Shown in pieces: positions 30,371-32,624 of a stretch of 64,000 nt of DNA (its first letter is position 1; every line of letters starts with the position of its first letter). The stretch lies in assembly GCF_000169195.2 (NCBI RefSeq), contig NC_016023.1:2976001-3040000 (forward strand). The letters run 5' to 3'. Under the pieces are notes generated by a model, which made no database searches, was not told the origin of the DNA, and saw only the letters and a list, made by a program, of their open reading frames with translations. This DNA comes from Heyndrickxia coagulans 36D1 (GTDB lineage: Bacteria > Bacillota > Bacilli > Bacillales > Bacillaceae_C). The position numbers and the translations under genes are program-made.

Positions 30371-30841
30371 ATGACATTATCACTCGATATGATGGATGAA
30401 ACAAATGAGCTTGAAGCGGAGCATCTCGAGCTTGTCCGGACATTGCTCGATTATGCTGCCCGTCAGGAAGGGGTGGAGGACGGCACCGAGTTGTCGGTAA
30501 CGTTTACGGATAATGAAGGGATCCGCGAAATCAACCGCGATTACCGCGGCAAAGACCAGCCGACCGATGTCATTTCGTTCGCGCTTGAAGAAATGGGGGA
30601 AGGGGAGATCGAAATTACTGGTGCAGAAATACCGCGCGTACTCGGGGATATCATTATTTCCGTGCCGCGGGCAAGGGAGCAGGCCGAAGAGTACGGGCAC
30701 TCGTTTGAAAGGGAACTCGGCTTTTTGGCGGTTCACGGATTTCTTCACCTGCTCGGCTATGACCATATGACAAAAGAAGATGAAACGGAAATGTTCGGGC
30801 GCCAAAACGAGATCCTCGATCGCTATGGACTTAAACGATAA
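30371..30841 (+). CDS. ybeY: Endoribonuclease / rRNA maturation factor YbeY
   Basis: YbeY is a metal-dependent RNase involved in 16S rRNA 3' end maturation and ribosome quality control. The 156 residues include [19 protein letters not shown] and the zinc triad motif [12 protein letters not shown] prefer ATG 30371 over 30362, which lies directly on the AAAAAGG ribosome-binding site. It overlaps dgkA by 17 bases. Confidence 0.94.
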
Positions 30842-31220
30842 AAAAATCCCGAAATACCGCACCCCTTTCCGGCCGGCTGTGGAAGGACTGTTTGCAACCA
30901 TCCGGCAGGAACGGAATTTCCGTTTTCATCTTCTGGCGGCGTTTTGCGCTTGTTTGCTCGGCTTTTTCTTCTCCCTTTCCAAAACAGAATGGATCGCCAT
31001 TTTAATTTCCATTTTCGGCGTGATCGCAATGGAGCTGATGAACACAGCAATTGAGCGGGCGGTTGACCTGACTGTCGGGCAGAAATACCACCCGCTTGCC
31101 AAGCTTGCGAAAGACGCAGCGGCGGCAGCAGTCCTGATGTGGGCCGTGCTTGCGGCCATTATCGGCTGCATCGTATTTCTTCCAAAATTATGGCATGTAT
31201 TCCAGGGAGCGGCTTTTTAA
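30825..31220 (+). CDS. dgkA: Undecaprenol kinase (DgkA family)
   Basis: In Gram-positive bacteria this small three-helix membrane kinase phosphorylates undecaprenol to recycle the cell-wall lipid carrier. The 131 residues contain [11 protein letters not shown], the catalytic [13 protein letters not shown] (Glu and Asn) and [19 protein letters not shown] motifs with three hydrophobic helices. The start lies inside the end of ybeY, so translation is coupled. In B. subtilis cdd follows; here a noncoding stretch follows instead. Confidence 0.92.
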
Positions 31221-31458
31221 TGCGGCTTCTTTTTTATGGCCCTCCCCCAAATGTCCTTACCTGCGCGATTTCGGCGTAAAAAAGCAGATGCCCTGCTTCA
31301 GCCGGACTGTCGTACAGAAACGGCATACGAGATCTGGTATGTGTAAAATTTTACTCGAAGGGCAGATGAGTGGAAAAAATGGGGAGACACTCTATTATCT
31401 AAATGTACACCGTTAAATGAACATCAAGAGAGAGGTCTTCCCATGGATATGCCGCAAT

Positions 31459-31487
31459 TTGAAAGGCACAGGCCGTTGCGCTAAAAT
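31459..31487 (+). promoter_or_regulatory. Upstream promoter candidate for era
   Basis: TTGAAA and TAAAAT are spaced by 17 bases, about 230 bases before era. Confidence 0.55.
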
Positions 31488-31615
31488 AAAGGTAATCACA
31501 CTACTTGAAAACGGCCATGGCATACTAAGTGACGCTAAAATCAGTGTAAATTCACCACGAGTCGACAATATTTTCACGAACTTTTAAAATATTCAAAAGT
31601 GATGAAAAATACATT

Positions 31616-31644
31616 TTAACTTTCGGGTCTATTTGTAGTAAAAT
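31616..31644 (+). promoter_or_regulatory. Proximal promoter candidate for era
   Basis: TTAACT and TAAAAT are spaced by 17 bases, followed by the cdd remnant and era within about 70 bases. Confidence 0.6.
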
Positions 31645-31663
31645 ACAGGTAAGGGGAAAAGAT

Positions 31664-31735
31664 ATGGAAACAATGGTAAAGCTGCTTTCGGGCACTTATT
31701 CAACGGAGGATTTGCATGGAACAACCAACATATAA
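31664..31735 (+). pseudogene. cdd: 3' remnant of cytidine deaminase gene cdd
   Basis: A 23-codon frame reads [23 protein letters not shown]. Its core [13 protein letters not shown] resembles the C-terminal tail of Bacillus cytidine deaminase (E-L-L-P-G-A-F-S-S-E-D-L-H). Nothing of the catalytic HAE or PCxxC parts is found upstream. The remnant contains GGAGG, the ribosome-binding site of era, and overlaps the era start, which would explain why only this end survived. It also has its own AAGGGG ribosome-binding site and may act as a short coupling leader peptide. Confidence 0.65.
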
Positions 31736-32624
31736 ATCAGGCTTTATTTCTATCATTGGACGCCCGAATGTCGGGAAGTCCACTTTCATCAACCAGGTGG
31801 TCGGGCAAAAAATCGCCATCATGAGCGATAAGCCGCAGACAACACGGAATAAGATACAGGGCGTTTACACAGCTGATGACGCACAGATGATTTTTATCGA
31901 TACACCCGGCATCCATAAACCGAAGCATAAGCTGGGCGATTTCATGGTAAAATCAGCCACGGATACATTAAAAGAAGTGGACCTGATTCTATTTATGGTC
32001 AATGCGGAAGAAAAACGCGGCCGCGGGGACGAGTACATTATCGAACTGCTTAAACACGTGCGCACGCCTGTTTTTTTGGTCATCAACAAAATTGACCTCG
32101 TTCATCCGGATGATTTGCTTGCCTTCATAGAACAGTACAAAGATTTATACCCGTTCCGTGAAGTGGTCCCGATTTCCGCACTCGGAGGAAACAACGTCAG
32201 CCGGCTGCTCGATACCATCAAGGCATATTTGCCGGAAGGGCCGCAGTATTATCCGGCAGACCAGGTGACAGACCATCCGGAACGCTTTATCATTTCGGAA
32301 CTGATCCGCGAAAAAGCGCTGCAGCTTACAAGAGAAGAAGTGCCGCATTCGATTGCGGTTGTTATTGAAAAAATGGAGCGGGAAGAGAACAAGGATGTCA
32401 TTCACGTGATGGCGACGATCGTTGTCGAACGGCCGTCCCAAAAAGGGATTATCATCGGCAGGCAGGGAAGCATGCTGAAAGAGATTGGCAAAAGAGCAAG
32501 GGCTGATATCGAAAATTTGCTCGGGTCGCAAGTTTATTTGGAATTATGGGTAAAAGTGCAGAAAGATTGGCGGAATAAAATCAGCCAGCTGCGCGATTTC
32601 GGTTTCCGGGAAGACGAATATTGA
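31716..32624 (+). CDS. era: GTPase Era
   Basis: Era is an essential GTPase in 16S rRNA processing and 30S assembly. The 302 residues have G1 GRPNVGKST near residue 12, switch region [10 protein letters not shown]3 [11 protein letters not shown]4 NKID and the C-terminal KH domain with [18 protein letters not shown]. Its GGAGG ribosome-binding site lies in the cdd remnant. The neighbours ybeY, phoH and recO are its usual partners. Confidence 0.97.

Follow-up and report, generated by a model that had tools for sequence, protein, structure and literature searches.

The window, by which we mean the whole 64,000-nucleotide stretch of Heyndrickxia coagulans 36D1 that was analysed, contains the gene for the GTPase Era and, upstream of it, the gene for diacylglycerol kinase. 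The features that concern us here are listed in order of position.

30825..31220, + strand: dgkA (prokaryotic diacylglycerol kinase), the upstream neighbour; Pfam PF01219, E 7.5e-36
31337..31450, + strand: repeat fragment lying after dgkA and ahead of the cdd promoter; its fuller copies mark it as the left end of an IS (insertion sequence); 26 further matches in the genome
31562..31590, + strand: promoter-like site TCGACA-17-TAAAAT, 10/12 in a consensus scan; similar sequence before cdd in relative G003 by alignment
31616..31644, + strand: likely cdd promoter, kept, TTAACT-17-TAAAAT, 9/12 in a consensus scan; aligns with G003 (intact cdd), G002 and G004
31652..31661, + strand: cdd Shine-Dalgarno (SD) sequence, kept, AGGGGAAAAG; duplex energy -7.3 kcal/mol; G003 has AGGGGAAAAC before its cdd start
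31664..31735, + strand: cdd relic, a 23-codon open reading frame (ORF) in which the start codon of cdd runs in frame into the final cdd codons
31705..31709, + strand: era SD sequence GGAGG, read from the sequence, inside the relic tail; duplex energy -9.5 kcal/mol
31716..32624, + strand: era (GTPase Era, 302 aa); NCBIfam NF000908, E 8.6e-124

No Cdd is encoded in the dgkA-era interval, as the sequence-only reading had stated, and the sole match to the cytidine deaminase model TIGR01354 in the genome lies far from era. The same reading had noticed that the short ORF contains the GGAGG of era and runs over the era ATG, and the sequence bears this out: 31664-31735 shares 20 nt with era. The relic does not qualify as a functional cytidine deaminase (TIGR01354 / PF00383), both catalytic segments being deleted relative to the Cdd of G003, and its 23-aa product has no NCBIfam match. 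The likely cdd promoter at 31616-31644 now precedes the relic and era. A further promoter-like site, TTGAAA-17-TAAAAT (31459-31487, + strand, 10/12), precedes the cdd promoter, in sequence mostly common to the window and G002.

Comparison across five genomes of the same genus identifies the interval as a gutted cdd, with a reconstructed ancestral order of dgkA-cdd-era in which the era SD and start codon lay inside the last cdd codons. Two of these relatives (G003 and G001) have an intact cdd directly before era. Upstream of the cdd ATG in G003 there is a TTAACT-17-TAAAAT site followed by AGGGGAAAA, and the same layout precedes the window relic; the G003 Cdd is 132 aa long with the C-terminus METTVEALLPGAFSAEDLHG, to which the relic tail is similar over 19 residues. 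Because the upstream signals and the tail both match G003, the relic is a cdd start joined in frame to a cdd tail. The resemblance of the 23-codon ORF to a Cdd C-terminus, first suspected without any alignment, proved significant when the stub peptide was aligned with the Cdd C-termini of G003 and G001 (score 57, reached by 0 of 20,000 shuffles); when just the 13 residues preceding the era-SD codons were used, 6 of 20,000 shuffles equalled or exceeded the score obtained. The head region of the window was also compared with the heads of 64 intact cdd genes; the best match, that of G003, scored 83, the maximum among 60 single-base shuffles being 29.

Measured against the G003 gene, the deletion is internal and in frame. 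It took out about 112 of 132 codons, and with them the zinc-site motifs in the CAERTA and PCGACR segments. This modifies the earlier picture of a deleted gene that left a 3' stub carrying the era ribosome-binding site, together with a promoter and SD of its own. The loss of cdd stands, given the intact relatives, but the 5' end was kept as well, and the promoter and SD, both of them present, align with those before the intact G003 cdd; we therefore reject a 3' stub with a separate promoter, since the promoter region is that of cdd. The closest named relative found, Heyndrickxia coagulans DSM 1 (G002; Era 97% identical), shares the relic, its ORF differing at a single base. The sequence ATGGAAA, found at the ancestral start (in G001 and G004) and in the tail (in G003), suggests that the deletion arose between short direct repeats. 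We found no evidence against the deletion itself.

The IS fragment at 31337-31450 can be rejected as the cause of the deletion, because G002 has the same deletion and, in the alignment, lacks the fragment at this site. Of two fuller copies of the repeat that were examined, one (L269) runs into a 484-aa PF06782 (UPF0236) protein, a family that we take to be transposases, and the other (L270) does not.

As to the enzyme itself, the whole-genome search for another cdd that the sequence-only reading had recommended found one: the window genome (one contig of 3,552,226 bases) has exactly one TIGR01354 match, at C1:1832536-1832910, 1.17 Mb from era (C1:3007716) and the last gene of a deoB-pdp-deoC-cdd operon. 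Its product shares 56% identity with the Cdd encoded before era in G003, compared with 80% between the era-linked Cdds of G003 and G001, and a 15-sequence tree places it alongside the Cdds of G002 and G004, apart from the era-linked Cdds. On this operon context and grouping we reject the idea that the same cdd was merely relocated. In G002 and G004, too, the only full Cdd is encoded away from era, next to deoC. More widely, Cdd is encoded elsewhere in 15 of 17 named genomes that lack cdd before era, the two without (L082 and L150) being metagenome-assembled genomes by title, and in 149 of the 150 genomes of an order-wide sample (147 of 147 at completeness of at least 90% and contamination of at most 5%). 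We infer that a second cdd copy made the era-linked copy redundant, which fits these data.

The neighbouring deoC shows a pattern that may represent reciprocal loss of duplicated nucleoside genes. It adjoins the operon cdd in the window genome (C1:1828500-1837500, L160), G002 and G004; in G001 and G003 the contig that carries era also has a deoC, approximately 9-10 kb away from it, and the best matches to the operon copy are 71% (G001) and 70% (G003) identical. We reject a deoC remnant in the window, for which the best E was 0.53.

A tree of YbeY, DgkA, Era, RecO and a 718-aa protein encoded upstream of ybeY, concatenated into 1568 columns with missing data, makes the intact G003 the sister of the window genome and G002, and places G004 outside with a support of 100. 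G004 keeps the cdd promoter region, the SD and the MEINQ codons, which continue in a different frame into a tail of final codons shorter than that of the window relic; its product reads MEINQFSGGLA to the stop, and its TGA overlaps the era ATGA. Since the tree puts the intact G003 between them, the window and G004 deletions are independent, and on this phylogeny the genus has lost the era-linked cdd at least twice. In Neobacillus, a genus of 61 genomes, a head-plus-tail relic of 24 codons, again in frame, occurs in 7 of 30 loci examined; when three of the seven were compared with four intact relatives, the promoter, 5' untranslated region (UTR), SD, GTG start and first codons matched. The Neobacillus relic represents a third deletion. 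The Neobacillus 5' UTR also has a hairpin-like CAGCAG...CTGCTG motif, approximately 32-17 nt before the relic start (L225, L230, L231), which is present before intact Neobacillus cdd as well, the stem being largely kept.

Three other loci look alike, with head scores of 42 against a shuffle maximum of 38 (L126), 45 against 32 (L139) and 36 against 31 (L152), 60 single-base shuffles per locus being used throughout. Such short head matches are weak, because single-base shuffles ignore common promoter motifs. Among 16 hand-picked cdd-less loci the head exceeded its shuffles in 10 and did not in six; no cdd head beyond shuffles was detected in L155, L157, G066, G104, G052 or G168, and for this reason their short ORFs were not counted as relic leaders.

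These cases sit within a broader pattern of retention and loss. Among 80 named era loci, a Cdd match lies directly upstream in 63 (L158 is cut by a contig end) and there is none in 17, one of which (L150) has a decayed cdd copy at the contig end; in the order survey of 150 genomes, an intact adjacent cdd is present in 113 and absent in 37. On visual inspection, some trace of cdd persists in about 10 of these 37: the window relic (G000), the L152 genome (G094), a decayed cdd before era in G122, the frameshifted G056, and tails around the GGAGG in G066, G104, G034, G079, G168 and G052, which amount to just a few residues in the last four. The remainder, about 27 of 37, have no relic visible by eye, as in the Mesobacillus-like G106, G135 and G161 and likewise the named L111, L149 and L154; in G074, G111, G139, G055 and G075, dgkA ends approximately 30-85 nt before era. 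In leaderless lineages the era SD is mostly of similar predicted strength, which argues against any general need for a relic. The G056 gene (L216) is nearly full length, with a frameshift near the CGACR segment, and is possibly a young pseudogene or a sequencing error.

In proposing how the window locus arose, we envisage four steps. First, cdd would have become redundant once a second cdd was present in the nucleoside-catabolism operon. Second, an in-frame deletion removed the body of the gene, leaving the promoter region, SD, start codon and tail. Third, the limits of the deletion would have been set by the need of era for the SD in the tail and for transcription from the cdd promoter. Fourth, and less certainly, the 23-codon relic would be translated and would help to load ribosomes on era. 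Taken as a whole, the account of a redundant cdd that was gutted, with its promoter and its era-SD tail kept because era uses them, is in our judgement very probably correct. The cdd signals would serve era by virtue of their position directly upstream, and a remark on Staphylococcus aureus in excerpts of PMC6738653 supports this; the same excerpts describe Era as dispensable in S. aureus, with a growth defect. They also give the order dgkA-cdd-era-recO for S. aureus and Bacillus subtilis, which is the ancestral order reconstructed here, except that cdd is intact there. Since the relic has an SD (-7.3 kcal/mol), its translation is likely.

The arrangement has partial precedents. In the intergenic spacers of Buchnera, some of which are decaying pseudogenes, PMC3164680 describes downstream SDs that stay while coding genes decay, as appears to be the case here; the present relics differ in that head and tail have been joined, repeatedly, and outside reduced symbiont genomes. 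In gamma-proteobacteria, era follows rnc, and the translation of era may depend on that of rnc through coupling, according to passages of a 2023 review of Era (PMC10582724), but there the upstream gene and the phylum are different and the upstream enzyme is intact. Among the matches listed from the openly licensed PMC literature, no title concerns the loss of cdd before era.

What the retained sequence now does for era can be read in two principal ways, which we rate about equally since retention of the frame is not significant against neutral expectation and the era SD in leaderless lineages is mostly of similar predicted strength. It may be a passive 5' UTR. What counts would then be just the promoter, the GGAGG and the spacing of the latter, and the open frame would be a leftover that disappears over time; we put this close to an even chance. 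Consistent with it are the out-of-frame leader of G004, the clean losses in other lineages, and four loci (L082, L101, L114 and L140) with possible tail remnants, judged by eye, and no SD-preceded ORF to the era start. The middle of the peptide is free to vary in Neobacillus, where codons 10-17 have 29 changes at 24 sites compared with 8 at 27 sites in codons 1-9. The predicted strength of the window era SD (-9.5 kcal/mol) and an RNA fold around the start no stronger than in shuffled sequences (z 0.23) also fit. However, the start codon and SD have survived three independent deletions, although neither would be needed in a passive UTR.

That last observation leads to the second possibility, a translated coupling leader, in which ribosomes would load at 31652-31661, read 23 codons and pass to, or open, the era start, the frame being under selection. 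We regard this as a serious contender that falls somewhat short of even. The features of such a leader, an SD, a start codon and an ORF reaching the downstream start, are all present in the relic, and the window, G002 (L080) and G004 all retain an SD, start and era-overlapping ORF; the Neobacillus relic holds its 24 codons, frame and stop in seven of seven genomes. In overlapping termination-reinitiation gene pairs, as described in parts of PMC10666635, the upstream frame likewise crosses the downstream SD and start, and in a reporter pair in Escherichia coli, termination-reinitiation needed no more of the upstream gene than its final 15 nt; our case differs from these pairs in that the upstream gene is a gutted remnant and coupling is putative. 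Against a leader maintained by selection, frame +1 meets its stop at the TGA of ATGA (in G004 and others), so that two of three frames are in any case open across the era SD; a neutral simulation gave seven stop-free Neobacillus relics a chance of 0.16-0.33, depending on the assumed rate, and retention of the frame is therefore not significant as proof of selection. Lineages without a leader are common, the window stop lies 20 nt inside era, further than in G003, and the G004 leader runs in another frame.

Two other readings fare poorly. An attenuator or stalling leader sensing a metabolite, such as pyrimidines, might be imagined from a short leader ORF before an important gene and from cdd being a pyrimidine gene, yet the peptide middle is not conserved in Neobacillus, no Rfam match was found at E up to 1 in 31200-31760, there is no terminator-like site in 31180-31760 and the fold is ordinary; we reject an RNA element or attenuator as very improbable. 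The lack of an NCBIfam family match might suggest that the ORF has nothing to do with Cdd and is an independent small protein or arose de novo; we reject this as more improbable still, since head and tail both align with the cdd of relatives beyond shuffles and no unrelated conserved small protein occurs at the site, where same-genus relatives have either intact cdd or a cdd relic.

It is tempting to generalise that cdd stays before era in most of these bacteria partly as a carrier of the era promoter and translation-start context, its body being deleted repeatedly when the enzyme is supplied elsewhere and its head and tail being joinable as a tiny translated adaptor; we offer this as speculation and think it rather unlikely. 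According to passages of the 2023 Era review (PMC10582724), what the association of cdd with era means is a question still to be answered, and the adaptor reading, if true, would give a testable answer to why the linkage persists. The relics amount to natural experiments, the enzyme having been lost and the expression signals left in place, so that the idea of cdd being kept near era for reasons of expression becomes directly testable; they also show how a downstream gene that matters for growth may influence what is lost from its neighbour. There is also a risk for small-ORF annotation, in that such relics could be taken for new small proteins. Finally, the L127 genome (G177) contains a second short Cdd-like fragment far from era (C2:907627-907728), which covers model residues 2-35 (E 1.1e-5) within a 49-aa open frame.
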